From Tenacibaculum adriaticum (GTDB taxonomy: Bacteria > Bacteroidota > Bacteroidia > Flavobacteriales > Flavobacteriaceae): a stretch of 64,000 bases of DNA. Position 1 is the first letter of the stretch; each line of letters starts with the position of its first letter. Location of the stretch: contig NZ_VNIA01000001.1 in NCBI RefSeq assembly GCF_008124875.1, positions 698,721 through 762,720 of the forward strand, read 5' to 3'. Below the pieces are notes generated by a model that saw only the letters and a program-made list of their open reading frames with translations, ran no database searches and was not told where the DNA came from. A program made the translations under genes and the position numbers. Of the stretch, positions 2,451-32,976 are shown in pieces.

Positions 2451-2494
2451 ACAAAACCCTAAGTAGTTGCATATGCAACTACTTAGGGTTTTGT
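2451..2494. promoter_or_regulatory. perfect 44-bp palindrome, putative MarR operator
   Basis: Bases 2451-2472 are the exact reverse complement of 2473-2494, with no spacer. The core AGTTGCATATGCAACT resembles known MarR-family operators. It ends one base before the -7 element of the marR gene, so a bound repressor would cover the -33 region. Autorepression of the whole efflux operon is inferred. Confidence 0.8.
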
Positions 2495-2495
2495 G

Positions 2496-2503
2496 TACTT
2501 TTG
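2496..2503 (+). promoter_or_regulatory. -7 element of the marR-RND operon
   Basis: TACTTTTG matches the Bacteroidota consensus TAnnTTTG and ends 4 nt before the ATG at 2508. Transcription would begin at or next to the start codon, giving a leaderless mRNA. Confidence 0.7.
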
Positions 2504-2507
2504 CAAA

Positions 2508-2982: not shown

Positions 2983-4098
2983 ATGAGAAAAATAATTCTT
3001 TCACTTTTTGGAGTATTAATTATCGTCGGGACTTTATTACTTGGAAAGTACATTATTGCCAACAAACAAAAACCAAAACCAGTATTCAATAAAATTGTGA
3101 AAACGGTTTTTGTAGAAAATGTTAAGAACAAAGAAATTCCAATTGTATTAACCACAAGTGGAAACTTAACAGCTAAAAATAAAATAGAATTATTTTCGGA
3201 GGTTCAAGGAGTTTTAAAACCATCAGCAAAACCATTTAAAGCCGGAACAAGCTTCTATAAAGGACAATCTTTATTAAGTATTAATAGTGATGAGTTTTAT
3301 GCTAGTTTACAATCGCAAAAAAGTAACTTATTTAACCTCGTTACTTCCATAATGCCCGACCTACGTTTAGATTACCCAGAGAATTTTAAAAAATGGGAAG
3401 CATATTTACAGCGTTTTGATCTCAATAAATCAACACCAAAACTACCCGAAGCTTCATCAGAAAAAGAAAAATATTTTATCTCAGGAAGAGGTATTACTAC
3501 CGCTTATTATAACGTTAAGAATTTAGAGGTAAAACTAGGTAAATATAGAATTAGAGCTCCTTTTAATGGAATTTTAACCGAAGCTTTAGTAACACCAGGA
3601 ACTTTAGTTCGAGTTGGTCAGAAATTAGGAGAATTCATAAGTCCATCAGTATTTGAAATGGAAGTTTCTATTAATGCAGAATATGCAGATTTATTAAAAG
3701 TAGGCAACACAGTTTCTTTATCAAATTTAGAACACACTAAAAAATATACAGGAAAAGTAGTTCGCGTAAACGGGAAGATAGACCAAACCTCTCAAACCAT
3801 AAAAGCATTTATAGAAGTAAAACATCAAGATTTAAAAGAAGGAATGTATTTAGAAGCCGATTTGGTTGCAAAATCTGAAAAAGAGGCTTTTAAAATTTCA
3901 AGAAAATTGTTGGTAGATAATAACAGTGTGTATATCGTTAAAAACGACAGCATTTTAAGCTTGGTTAAAATAGACCCTGTTTATTTTGGAGCAGAAAATG
4001 TTATTATAAAAGGCTTAGAAAACGATACTAAAGTTTTAACACAAACACTTCCTGGAGCATATAGCGGAATGACTGTTAAAATTAATAAAACTCAGTAA
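2983..4098 (+). CDS. RND efflux periplasmic adaptor (membrane fusion protein)
   Basis: 371 residues. One N-terminal membrane anchor (about 4-24) is followed by the HlyD/AcrA-type layout: a lipoyl half-motif around LFSEVQGVLKPSAKPFKAGTSF, a hairpin segment, the second lipoyl half at YRIRAPFNGILTEALV, then beta-barrel and membrane-proximal domains. The sequence between the lipoyl halves is short and lacks the long coiled coil of AcrA. It bridges the inner-membrane pump of the next gene (4 bp away) to the TolC protein at 7289. There is no lipobox, unlike the three other adaptors in this window, so it is anchored by the membrane helix. Confidence 0.9.
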   Translation: MRKIILSLFGVLIIVGTLLLGKYIIANKQKPKPVFNKIVKTVFVENVKNKEIPIVLTTSGNLTAKNKIELFSEVQGVLKPSAKPFKAGTSFYKGQSLLSINSDEFYASLQSQKSNLFNLVTSIMPDLRLDYPENFKKWEAYLQRFDLNKSTPKLPEASSEKEKYFISGRGITTAYYNVKNLEVKLGKYRIRAPFNGILTEALVTPGTLVRVGQKLGEFISPSVFEMEVSINAEYADLLKVGNTVSLSNLEHTKKYTGKVVRVNGKIDQTSQTIKAFIEVKHQDLKEGMYLEADLVAKSEKEAFKISRKLLVDNNSVYIVKNDSILSLVKIDPVYFGAENVIIKGLENDTKVLTQTLPGAYSGMTVKINKTQ

Positions 4099-4101
4099 CC
4101 A

Positions 4102-7100
4102 ATGAAAAAAATAATAACCTATTTTATTAAATATCCGGTTGCTGTTAATGTTTTTATAATTGCGTTTATCGTTTTCGGATTATTAGGTGCTTTAAGTATG
4201 AAGTCGTCTTTCTTTCCGTTGGTAGATTCGCAATTAATCAGCATTAATTTGGTATATCCAGGGGCTTCTCCACAAGAAATGGAAGAAGGAGTTGTGTTAA
4301 AAATTGAAGACAATTTAAAAGGAATTGTCGGTGTAGAAAGAATAACATCAGTTTCTCTTGAAAACTCTGCAAGAGTATATGTAGAAGTAGAAAAAGGAAA
4401 AAATATTGATGTTGTTTTATCGGATGTAAAAAATGCAGTAGATAGAGTTCCGTCTTTTCCTAGCGGAATGGAACCACCAGTTATTGCAAAAGTAGAAAAT
4501 ATTAGATCCACCATTAGTTTTACCGTTAGTGGGGAAAATTTACCACTAACCACATTAAAGCAATATGCTAGAAATATTGAAAATGATTTACGAGGTATTG
4601 ACGGAATTTCCCAAGTAGATTTATCTGGTTTTCCCGAAGAAGAAATAGAAATTGCTGTTAGAGAAAATGATCTACGTGCATTTAATATGTCTTTTACAGA
4701 AGTTGCTAATGCTATAAGAAATTCAAATATCTTAATTACAGGTGGTAACATAAAAACAGATGAAGAAGATTATTTAATCCGAGCAAGCAATCGTTCTTAT
4801 TATGGAATTGAGCTTCAAAATTTAATTGTTAGAACAGAATCTTCAGGAAATATTATAAGGTTAAAAGATGTTGCAGAAGTAAAAGATATTTGGTCAGAGA
4901 ATCCAGATAGATTGTACTATAATGGAAATCTAGCTATTGATATTACGGTAAGTAATACAAACAATGAAGATTTAATTTCATCGGCAGATAAAATTAAAGA
5001 ATACATTCATAAATTTAATCAACAACACGAAAATGTTCAGTTAAATGTTTCTAGTGATTCTTCAGTTACATTAAATGGAAGAACGCAACTATTAATAGAA
5101 AACGGAATTTTTGGGATCTTATTAGTATTGTTGTTTTTGGCCTTGTTTTTAAATGTAAGATTAGCTATTTGGGTAGCTTTTGGTTTGCCGATAGCCTTTT
5201 TCGGAATGTTTATTTTTGCAGCACAATTAGGCGTTACTATTAATGTATTATCACTCTTCGGGATGATTATTGTTATTGGTATTTTGGTTGATGACGGAAT
5301 TGTAATTGGAGAAAACATTTATCATCATTATTACGATTTAGGAAAATCTAAGATTAAAGCCGCTATTGATGGAACCATGGAAGTAATTCCGCCAATTGTT
5401 TCAGCAATTTTAACAACTATAATTGCCTTTTCTACCTTCTTTTTTGTGGATGGAAGAATAGGTAGTTTTTTTAGTGAAGTTTCTACTATTGTATTGCTCA
5501 CACTATCTGTTTCTTTGGTAGAAGCTTTAATTATTTTGCCAGCACATATTGCTCATTCGAAAGCGCTTCAAAGAAAAAAAGATGAAAATGGAATAGCTAT
5601 AAAAGAGAATAAATTAGATGCTTTTTTTACAAAAGTGAATGAGAAAGCAGATGGCTTTTTAGTAAATATTAGAGATAAATATTACATGCCATTTCTAAGA
5701 TTTTCTCTTCAAAATAAGCTTTTTGCTTTCGCAATTCCTATTGCATTGTTAATTTTCAGTTTTGCAGGAATTGGTGGAGGAATTGTAAAAACATCATTTT
5801 TCCCTTCTATAGCAAGTGATAGAGTTCAGATATCGCTAAATATGCCACAAGGAACCAATGAAAAAATTACAGATTCCATTATATCTTCAATCGAAGAAAA
5901 AGTTTGGATTATCAATAAAGAATACACCCAAAAACAAACTGGAAATATTGATGTTGTTCAAAATGTAATTAAAAGAGTAGGTCCAGGTACCGCAAATGCA
6001 ACATTAACAGTAAACTTATTGCCTGGAGAATCTAGAGATTTTTCATCACCAGAAATCACCAATTCAATTAGAGATAAGGTAGGAAAAGTATATGGTGTAG
6101 AAAGCTTAATGTTCGGTTCTGGAGGGAATTTTGGGGGTAGCCCGGTAGCTGTTTCTTTATTAGGAAGTAATATTGAAGAATTGAAAGCAGCCAAAAAAGA
6201 GTTGAAAGATGAATTGGAAAACAATCCTCTTTTAAAAGATGTTGCAGATAATGATCCGGCAGGAATTAAGGAAGTGAAAATTAAACTGAAAGATAATGCG
6301 TATTTACTCGGATTAAATTTACAATCGGTAATGTCGCAAGTACGTTATGGTTTTTTTGGGTTCCAAGCACAACGTTTTCAACGTGGACAAGACGAAATAA
6401 AAGTTTGGGTACGTTACGACAAAAAAGATAGATCTTCTATAAAAAATTTAGATGAAATGAGAATTGTAGCTCCTAACGGAACGAGAATTCCATTTTCTGA
6501 AATTGCTACTTATGAAATTGAAAGGGGAGATATCGCTATTAATCATTTAAGTGGAAAAAGAGAAATTCAAATTTCTGCAGATTTAAAAACACCAGGTGAA
6601 GGAGCAACGGAAATTATAGAGGATATTAAAACGAGATTAATGCCAGAGATTACCTCTAAGTATCCAACAGTTTCTCCTTTATATGAAGGACAAAATAGAG
6701 AGGCTAAAAAGACAACAGATTCTGTAAATGTAGTAGGCCCTATTATTTTGTTGTTAATCTATATAACAATTGCATTCACATTTAGATCTTACAGTCAGCC
6801 AATTTTATTGATTTTAATGATTCCTTTTAGTATGATAGGAGTAGTATGGGGGCATTATTTTCACGGATTTGCAATTGGTATTTTATCTTGGTTAGGAATT
6901 ATTGCTTTAATAGGAATTATGGTAAATGACGGATTAGTTTTAATAGGGAAATTCAACAGTTATTTAAAAGAAGGGGTAAAATATGATGAAGCTTTAATTA
7001 GAGCAGGTCAATCTCGTTTTAGAGCTATTTTATTAACATCATTAACAACCATTGCAGGTCTAGCACCTTTATTATTAGAAAAAAGTAGACAAGCTCAATT

Positions 7101-7302
7101 TTTAAAGCCTATGGCAATTTCAATTTCTTATGGTATTGGAATCGCAACTATTTTAACCCTGGTAATGTTACCGTTATTATTATCGGTTTCTAATTCAATA
7201 AAAGTGTTTATAAAATGGTTAAAAACAGGAAATAAAGTAAGTAAAGAAGAAGTTGAAAGAGCAATTATAGAATCTAAATTTGATAGCGATGAAATTCATT
7301 AA
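4102..7302 (+). CDS. RND efflux pump permease, HAE/AcrB-like
   Basis: 1066 residues, normal for a 12-helix RND transporter. The N-terminus carries the first membrane helix and the porter motif VYPGASPQEMEEGV. TM4 has the proton-relay pair in GILVDDGIVIGEN. The second half repeats the fold, with SWLGIIALIGIMVNDGLVLIGK in TM10 and an R-rich loop before TM11. It exports hydrophobic or amphiphilic compounds by proton antiport from the inner membrane and periplasm. It sits between adaptor and TolC genes and overlaps the TolC start by 14 nt, so the three are translated together. Substrate cannot be read from the sequence; a MarR regulator suggests small aromatic or toxic compounds. Confidence 0.93.
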   Translation: MKKIITYFIKYPVAVNVFIIAFIVFGLLGALSMKSSFFPLVDSQLISINLVYPGASPQEMEEGVVLKIEDNLKGIVGVERITSVSLENSARVYVEVEKGKNIDVVLSDVKNAVDRVPSFPSGMEPPVIAKVENIRSTISFTVSGENLPLTTLKQYARNIENDLRGIDGISQVDLSGFPEEEIEIAVRENDLRAFNMSFTEVANAIRNSNILITGGNIKTDEEDYLIRASNRSYYGIELQNLIVRTESSGNIIRLKDVAEVKDIWSENPDRLYYNGNLAIDITVSNTNNEDLISSADKIKEYIHKFNQQHENVQLNVSSDSSVTLNGRTQLLIENGIFGILLVLLFLALFLNVRLAIWVAFGLPIAFFGMFIFAAQLGVTINVLSLFGMIIVIGILVDDGIVIGENIYHHYYDLGKSKIKAAIDGTMEVIPPIVSAILTTIIAFSTFFFVDGRIGSFFSEVSTIVLLTLSVSLVEALIILPAHIAHSKALQRKKDENGIAIKENKLDAFFTKVNEKADGFLVNIRDKYYMPFLRFSLQNKLFAFAIPIALLIFSFAGIGGGIVKTSFFPSIASDRVQISLNMPQGTNEKITDSIISSIEEKVWIINKEYTQKQTGNIDVVQNVIKRVGPGTANATLTVNLLPGESRDFSSPEITNSIRDKVGKVYGVESLMFGSGGNFGGSPVAVSLLGSNIEELKAAKKELKDELENNPLLKDVADNDPAGIKEVKIKLKDNAYLLGLNLQSVMSQVRYGFFGFQAQRFQRGQDEIKVWVRYDKKDRSSIKNLDEMRIVAPNGTRIPFSEIATYEIERGDIAINHLSGKREIQISADLKTPGEGATEIIEDIKTRLMPEITSKYPTVSPLYEGQNREAKKTTDSVNVVGPIILLLIYITIAFTFRSYSQPILLILMIPFSMIGVVWGHYFHGFAIGILSWLGIIALIGIMVNDGLVLIGKFNSYLKEGVKYDEALIRAGQSRFRAILLTSLTTIAGLAPLLLEKSRQAQFLKPMAISISYGIGIATILTLVMLPLLLSVSNSIKVFIKWLKTGNKVSKEEVERAIIESKFDSDEIH

Positions 7303-8625: not shown

Positions 8626-8656
8626 AAAAAAACAGCCTATAGGCTGTTTTTTTTTT
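8626..8656 (+). terminator. rho-independent terminator after the MarR-RND operon
   Basis: Stem AACAGCC-TATA-GGCTGTT flanked by A-run and a ten-base T-run. Confidence 0.9.
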
Positions 8657-9409: not shown

Positions 9410-9916
9410 ATGAAAAGCATAATTAAAAACAGTCTGTTAATTTTTCTTTTAGCGGTTTCATATATAAGTTTCTCTCAAGATAAAAGTATGAGTGAAATTG
9501 AGGATATGAAATATATGGTTGAAGAAGAAAAAATGGCAAGAGATGTATATGAATATTTAGGTGATAAATGGAATTTAAGAGTATTCAATAATATTAAACA
9601 AAGTGAACAACGTCATATGGAGATGATGCAAAACTTACTAGAGGTAAATAAGATTGATTATACGATAAGTAAAGAAAAAGGTGTGTTTTTCAATAAAGAA
9701 TTACAGAAGATTTATGATGCACTAATTACTCGCGGATCAACATCAGTACTTGAAGCAATAGAAGTTGGTAAATTAATTGAAAAAAAAGATATTGAAGATT
9801 TGGAAGGAGCGATACGCAACTCACAAGACGATTTTGCAAAACAAGTATATTCATATTTATTAAAAGGTTCACAAAATCATTTAAGAGCTTTTAACAGACA
9901 ATTATCAAGATATTAA
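9410..9916 (+). CDS. secreted DUF2202 ferritin-like protein
   Basis: 168 residues. A cleavable signal peptide (1 to about 22, ending YISFSQ) replaces the lipobox of its neighbour. The ligand pattern is kept: EEEKMARDVYEYL, SEQRHMEMM, a central helix, and GSQNHLRAFNR at the C-terminus. It is clearly a paralogue of the protein at 8728 with a shorter linker. Both are periplasmic by signal type, one membrane-tethered and one soluble. It is preceded by an ATGAY-type dyad rather than the GTAAC type, so the pair may answer to different signals. A strong hairpin terminator follows immediately at 9915. Confidence 0.85.
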   Translation: MKSIIKNSLLIFLLAVSYISFSQDKSMSEIEDMKYMVEEEKMARDVYEYLGDKWNLRVFNNIKQSEQRHMEMMQNLLEVNKIDYTISKEKGVFFNKELQKIYDALITRGSTSVLEAIEVGKLIEKKDIEDLEGAIRNSQDDFAKQVYSYLLKGSQNHLRAFNRQLSRY

Positions 9917-9944
9917 AAAGGGTAGCATTAATGCTACCCTTTTT
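9915..9944 (+). terminator. rho-independent terminator after the second DUF2202 gene
   Basis: AAAAAGGGTAGCAT-TA-ATGCTACCCTTTTT, a near perfect hairpin starting at the stop codon. Confidence 0.92.
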
Positions 9945-9947
9945 AAT

Positions 9948-12487: not shown

Positions 12488-12528
12488 TAAATTTTAAAGA
12501 AGTTGAATTTTCACACTTCTTAAATTTT

Positions 12529-12567
12529 AAATGAAAACACCTGCTTATAAGCAGGTGTTTTCATTTA
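12529..12567 (+). terminator. terminator after peroxiredoxin gene
   Basis: Stem AAATGAAAACACCTGC / GCAGGTGTTTTCATTT with a six-base loop; A- and T-rich ends let it act both ways. Confidence 0.85.
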
Positions 12568-12592
12568 AAAAACTGATTTTAAAATAATTAGT

Positions 12593-13351: not shown

Positions 13352-13385
13352 AAAAAGGATTTATAATTATTATAAATCCTTTTTT
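13352..13385 (+). terminator. terminator between the DUF6799 gene and the beta-barrel gene
   Basis: AAAAAGGATTTATAAT / ATTATAAATCCTTTTT hairpin followed by Ts. It ends only 20 bp before the next ATG, with no clear promoter between, so some read-through is likely. Confidence 0.75.
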
Positions 13386-32941: not shown

Positions 32942-32976
32942 AAAAGCCCAATTAAACAATGTTTAATTGGGCTTTT
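32942..32976. terminator. bidirectional terminator between ppsA and tRNA-Met
   Basis: AAAAGCCCAATTAAAC-AAT-GTTTAATTGGGCTTTT, a 16-bp stem with A and T flanks serving ppsA on plus and the tRNA on minus. Confidence 0.9.

Follow-up and report, generated by a model that had tools for sequence, protein, structure and literature searches.

A predicted MarR operator extended into a perfect 44-bp palindrome at the promoter of a Tenacibaculum efflux operon

Upstream of a marR-family gene in Tenacibaculum adriaticum lies what appears to be an ordinary, conserved MarR operator that has been extended in this lineage into a perfect palindrome. Hairpin-templated copying is the likeliest cause, and the product may have been kept as a terminator. 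The initial annotation had described this palindrome, and an inverted-repeat search recovered it in full within the window (the whole 64,000-nucleotide stretch of DNA that was analysed). It spans 44 bp (2451-2494), with arms of 22 nt each at 2451-2472 and 2473-2494 that are 100% complementary and have 0 nt between them. Its right end is separated by a single base (G2495) from a -7 box, TACTTTTG, at 2496-2503 on the + strand, also as annotated. The central 18-bp core, TAGTTGCATATGCAACTA (2464-2481, centred on 2472/2473), is flanked by a left outer arm, ACAAAACCCTAAG (2451-2463), and a right outer arm that mirrors it, CTTAGGGTTTTGT (2482-2494), and ends in a terminator-like GGGTTTT.

Symmetry of this length is far beyond chance, since the longest perfect inverted-repeat arms in three second-order Markov simulations (463 kb, spacer of at most 5) were 11, 16 and 12 bp. 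Yet the palindrome is not alone: the real 463 kb contain 29 perfect inverted repeats with arms of at least 14 bp and a spacer of at most 5, among which it is joint fourth in arm length. By eye, most of the 29 are A-tract/T-tract hairpins near gene ends. Complete symmetry is unusual for an operator, and PMC9892617 describes symmetric sites as seldom found among operators; this genome nonetheless has many long perfect ones, mostly terminator-like in look. RNA folding of 2430-2515 gave -33.9 kcal/mol (z -7.1).

The palindrome was said to overlap a leaderless marR promoter. The overlap is seen directly, and the leaderless part stands as a prediction from promoter spacing. PMC9723704 places a TAnnTTTG box at -12 to -5 in Flavobacterium psychrophilum; with that consensus and spacing, TACTTTTG is a TAnnTTTG match and the predicted start falls on 2508, where the marR ATG begins. 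The gene (2508-2972, + strand) encodes a 154-aa regulator that matches Pfam PF01047 with 47.3 bits against a cut-off of 24.6 (E 1.9e-12). Its PDB sequence matches include HosA, SlyA, MepR and MexR (a multidrug resistance operon repressor), and it reached no NCBIfam equivalog cut-off. Profile matches identify the following genes as an RND efflux periplasmic adaptor (HlyD/RND_mfp, 2983-4098, + strand) and an RND permease (AcrB/ACR_tran, 4102-7302, + strand), giving the order marR-hlyD-acrB. MarR-family autoregulated efflux operons are known elsewhere, that of E. coli MarR among them. The upstream genes, for a PepSY_TM protein and a putative esterase (1127-2302, + strand), share the direction of marR. 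Among relatives, all 98 distinct regions (out of 131) for which 1200 nt or more are available downstream have a HlyD-like match there, and we therefore treat these loci as one conserved operon. Six Rfam matches were weak, all far below the gathering score.

Related loci were gathered by whole-genome searches, a contig search and fetched stretches. One search gave 53 hits, from which loci were taken for 30 (five of the other hits are from genomes that the sample does not otherwise include, G636, G627, G631, G711 and G683). We searched 166 loci with the MarR protein, and 153 matched at E 1e-8 while 13 (L022-L034) did not. Two of the 153 had too little upstream sequence (L049, L051) and eight lacked the core (L062, L082, L123 and L017-L021), leaving 143, which were reduced to 131 distinct 64-bp regions by dropping 12 duplicates and to 78 by thinning. 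Judging by their scores of about 70 bits or below, L017-L021 may be paralogues.

Alignment of these upstream regions revealed that only the centre of the palindrome, about 18 bp, is strongly conserved and that the outer arms are variable. With a core called at 12 or more of 16 letters matching, the 18-bp consensus TAGTTGCANNTGCAACTA sits over the -33 region in 143 of the 151 marR-relative upstream regions that could be judged. In the 78 thinned regions, information is about 0.7-2.6 bits per base up to 9 bp from the centre and mostly below 0.5 (maximum 0.65) beyond. In the window the core is centred on the -33 region, about 35 bp upstream of the predicted start, and its inner 16 bp have one exact occurrence in the genome. 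The GTTG..CAAC core, the adjacent MarR-family gene and the overlapped promoter bear out the annotated MarR operator, and on this comparative evidence the core is very probably an operator of the ordinary kind.

The -7 box was recognised 11-25 bp to the right of the operator centre in 121 of the 131 regions; it starts 21-25 bp from the centre in 109 and 11-18 bp in 12, and none was recognised in 10. In those 12 (e.g. L037, L093, L099, L010) the operator centre is about one helical turn nearer to the box. Three good MarR relatives, L062, L082 and L123 (194, 158 and 105 bits), have no core operator upstream.

The arrangement resembles that of MexR/mexAB-oprM in Pseudomonas aeruginosa, in which a MarR-family regulator of RND efflux has GTTG-type half-sites over the promoter (PMC9892617). 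It differs in having a flavobacterial TAnnTTTG promoter, predicted to be leaderless, with the regulator gene first, and in the extension of its operator to 44 bp of perfect palindrome; in the same source the MexR PII site is described as symmetric in its half-sites alone.

The outer arms vary in sequence from relative to relative and are little conserved, apart from a close clade that shares much of the left arm. Their symmetry nonetheless exceeds expectation. At pairs 10-22 of the 131 regions, 761 of 1703 cells match, compared with 666.5 (sd 17.0) when right arms were shuffled and 689.2 (sd 17.2, maximum 743) when they were taken from near relatives. At least six further uninterrupted pairs occur in 19 of the 131 regions, compared with 1.3 under shuffling and 5.8 under the nearest-relative null (maximum 12 in 1000). 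Thinning to 78 regions leaves 475 matching cells of 1014, where shuffling gives 401.0 and near relatives give 434.7 (sd 13.5, maximum 480). Six or more further pairs without a break are then present in 12 rows, where the two nulls give 0.9 and 2.6 (maximum 9). When an earlier, smaller set was divided by relatedness, the closer half had a clear excess in pair count (365 vs 298.2, sd 11.2). The more distant half had no clear excess in pair count (249 vs 233.0, sd 9.6), and it contained 4 long rows with 0.6 expected.

Within the close clade the two arms also change together. Among 18 hand-picked rows from it, 26 cells of the outer 13 pairs are doubly changed, compared with 11.7 (sd 2.6) shuffled and none of 500 shuffles as high, and the covariation score is 0.297, where sliding the arms gives 0.104 at most. 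Counted by pair, double changes were not raised in these 18 relatives (6 pairs vs 5.2 shuffled, 201 of 500 as high). The extended state, defined as a score of at least 6, is found in 22 of the 131 regions and not in the other 109. A quickly built tree of 130 MarR proteins (L053, too short, was excluded) requires at least 15 changes of this state, or 11 at a score of at least 10, counts that do not distinguish gain from loss. Where arms match, they do so with different sequences: AACCCTAAG in the window, AACTTTAAT in L006, L087 and L094, AACCCAAAT in L014 from another family of the order, and AACATTTAA in L188 and L040. Of the explanations first offered for the identical arms, conversion between them is the best fit, as symmetry beyond the core is above chance while the sequence itself does not persist.

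We interpret this as arms made symmetric by hairpin-templated (template-switch) copying seeded by the operator, an explanation to which we give an even chance on the comparative evidence. From family knowledge and from the position of the core, one MarR dimer would bind TAGTTGCATATGCAACTA over the -33 region and shut off its own, predicted leaderless marR-hlyD-acrB operon until released by ligand. The outer 13 bp of each arm would form no second binding site. During replication the core would fold back as a hairpin, and the polymerase would copy one arm from the other, as in quasipalindrome template switching. The hairpin produced here has the form of a terminator, AAAACCC..GGGTTTT, and transcription running in from the upstream gene may end at it. 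Template switching is an established process in E. coli that renders quasipalindromes more perfect (PMC7202029) and has been proposed to make and keep RNA hairpins (PMC8794818). The likeness is to mutation in lacZ and thyA of E. coli, where imperfect inverted repeats are perfected by copying from the other arm (PMC7202029, PMC8794818); unlike there, the process here would be read from a cross-species comparison, and at a repressor operator.

Several results are consistent with such copying, which should yield matching arms whatever the gene context, with Watson-Crick pairs and in clusters of changes. The long, matching yet different arms of the relatives suggest that it recurs. One pair of loci, L011 and L096, has identical left arms (28 bp compared) and differs at four positions between -33 and +78, namely three adjacent right-arm bases and one further base. 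The three adjacent bases decide whether pairs 14-16 match, in this single pair of loci and with the direction of change unpolarised. At pairs 10-16 Watson-Crick matches are in excess (442 vs 354.3 expected), and G-T was not favoured over A-C (49 with 64.7 expected vs 62 with 64.0 expected). An excess only of Watson-Crick pairs is what copying at the DNA level predicts. Selection at the RNA level should have shown as more G-U than A-C among the departures; we saw no such surplus and set that reading aside. Nor are extended arms confined to co-directional contexts, being present in 7 of 42 regions next to a divergent gene. On the other side, kinship of the sequences inflates the covariation, and the change counts on the tree cannot separate gain from loss. 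Among extended arms, pair 16 is often C-G (C 55%, G 59%) with A-T pairs after it, a pattern suggestive of selection for an end of terminator type, and this counts against template switching. So do the 109 of 131 regions that are not extended, the lack of a clear pair-count excess in the more distant half, and the commoner extension, detailed below, where a co-directional upstream gene has no other terminator.

The arms of the close clade are not equally conserved, with a mean pairwise identity of 0.70 for the left and 0.52 for the right in the 18 hand-picked relatives; over the 78 thinned regions the left arm had no such advantage (0.42 vs 0.41). A functional left box alone could explain the better-conserved left arm of this clade. 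A TTTAACA box lies at the left of the operator (2447-2453, + strand), and in many relatives a similar box begins to the left of the centre at a distance of 26/25 or 17/16 bp (39+6 and 36+13 matches, respectively, among 131 regions). The two distances are about one helical turn apart, and in 33 of the 131 regions a 40-bp range holds no match. Over 463 kb of the genome TTTAACA is no more frequent than expected (286 occurrences vs 262 and 268 simulated). The box is perhaps an upstream promoter element or an activator site.

A terminator function could itself be what maintains the pairing. The operator would then be nested in an intrinsic terminator, and pairing would be selected because the GGGTTTT-ended hairpin stops read-through into the marR operon; we regard this as possible but rather doubtful. 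The form of an intrinsic terminator is present, a G+C-containing hairpin followed by a T-run. The palindrome scored as terminator-like on the + strand, a label that is weak alone because the scan found 9 such hairpins in 16 kb with 5.2 expected. At -31.8 kcal/mol the hairpin ranks second among the 29 long perfect palindromes of the 463 kb. The scan found no other terminator-like hairpin between the esterase stop (2302) and the palindrome (2451), and ends made of C-G and then a T-run are frequent among extended arms. Several features speak against this function. The palindrome lies 148 bp past the stop codon of the upstream gene; of the 19 long palindromes between tandem genes, 16 are within 50 bp. 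Its T-run of only 4 is at the low end for this genome, yet 12 of the 29 long palindromes have none longer. There is no surplus of G-U pairs. The divergent contexts with extended arms include L006, L087 and L186, where the arms are 20-23 bp long, and a separate terminator and extended arms occur together in L188, L040, L066 and L174.

A terminator would maintain pairing wherever a transcript from upstream has to end. We compared arm extension between gene contexts, with upstream genes and separate terminators called by simple scripts of our own and with two regions excluded that had no called upstream gene. Median hairpin energies rank as the extension counts do, at -12.5 for co-directional regions without another terminator, -8.2 for those with one, and -9.9 beside divergent genes. 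Extended arms are found in 11 of 32 co-directional regions without another terminator and in 4 of 55 with one (p 0.002 unthinned, 0.097 thinned). The thinned counts are 5 of 19 without a terminator, 2 of 29 with one and 6 of 28 divergent. Co-directional regions without a terminator compared with divergent ones gave p 0.10 unthinned and 0.74 thinned, and divergent regions compared with co-directional ones with a terminator gave 0.20 and 0.14. In a closer set (63 regions of at least 170 bits with a called upstream gene), extension occurs in 9 of 20 co-directional regions without another terminator, 3 of 19 with one and 5 of 24 divergent ones (p 0.08 for the first two). Tree-aware pairs lean towards the terminator but are too few to weigh (8 pairs; 2.0 in the terminator direction and 0.4 in the other, on average). 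A post hoc "terminator-like" class has 6/32, 3/55 and 1/42 members in these three contexts, and we do not lean on it because its rule omits the window's own palindrome. The dependence of extension on context is only suggestive in these alignments. A strict terminator hypothesis was rejected on this result and on the extended arms in divergent contexts.

Two MarR dimers side by side had been proposed to bind the palindrome. We dropped this as the leading idea because the outer arms are variable and those in the window hold no further GTTG/CAAC half-site, and so bear little likeness to a second dimer site. The initial annotation had itself named a conserved centre with variable outer arms as counting against its reading, and as far as conservation goes that is the pattern seen. 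The broader version, that protein selection keeps the whole 44 bp symmetric for two dimers or one wide-contact dimer, fits the four-turn length and the position, and also the frequent C-G at pair 16 in the extended set. A second protein site would conserve outer sequence, which argues against one here. Most relatives (109 of 131 regions) lack extended arms altogether, and MexR, a relative, is described as binding as one dimer to a 34-bp site that is symmetric only in its GTTGA half-sites (PMC9892617). We hold this broader version to be improbable. Even less probable is a DNA cruciform, extruded under supercoiling, that would tune the promoter or the binding of MarR. The geometry of a perfect AT-rich palindrome with no spacer, next to a -7 box, should permit extrusion, but extended arms are lacking in the same 109 regions. 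Chance, or descent from one symmetric ancestor, would draw on AT-rich flanks, related sequences, a left arm largely common to the close clade and a thinned nearest-relative null that contains the pair count (475, maximum 480; one of two measures), and it is scarcely credible given the full-set excess over both nulls, the covariation and the state changes on the tree.

Long perfect symmetry at a regulator site is easily mistaken for a large or double binding site, and we caution against deducing the size of a site from its symmetry, the strongly conserved part here being only about 18 bp. If hairpin-templated copying is indeed the cause, operators would be mutational hotspots whose flanks are rebuilt in one step, which would open a route from operator to terminator. 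More generally, and tentatively, operators may seed template switching such that their flanks repeatedly become long perfect palindromes, some of which are kept as terminators, giving operator and terminator in one. Both extended and unextended sister sequences exist within the family, and if this generalisation is true the marR operon of the Flavobacteriaceae would be a natural series of operator-to-palindrome stages. In the part of the literature covered on overlaps of operators with terminators, on MarR palindromes of flavobacteria and on operators as sites of template switching, the combination was not found; with such partial coverage this does not prove its absence.

Across 462,720 bases with script-called genes, 42 perfect inverted repeats have arms of at least 12 bp: 25 tandem, 10 convergent, 3 divergent and 4 coding. 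PMC6060812 describes inverted repeats in E. coli as linked with terminators and rare just before start codons. The window holds a longer perfect palindrome of 46 bp with 23-bp arms (12525-12570), and others at 9912-9947 (36 bp), 32942-32976 (35 bp), 13352-13384 (33 bp) and 8626-8653 (28 bp), with a spacer of 0 or 1. These five, most of them A-tract/T-tract-ended and near gene ends, are probably terminators, and the same copying between arms may be why they are more perfect than a terminator requires. The marR palindrome is like the terminator-like palindromes of this genome in having an A-tract, a stem and a T-tract and in being perfect and, as they often are, spacerless. It differs from them in its promoter location, its distance of 148 bp from the upstream stop and the conserved protein site at its centre. 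Three loci with other MarR-like regulators (L018, L020 and L025) have TTGATATATCAA-type upstream sites, and the one in L018 lies inside a 32-bp perfect palindrome, possibly another extended operator, though AT-rich.
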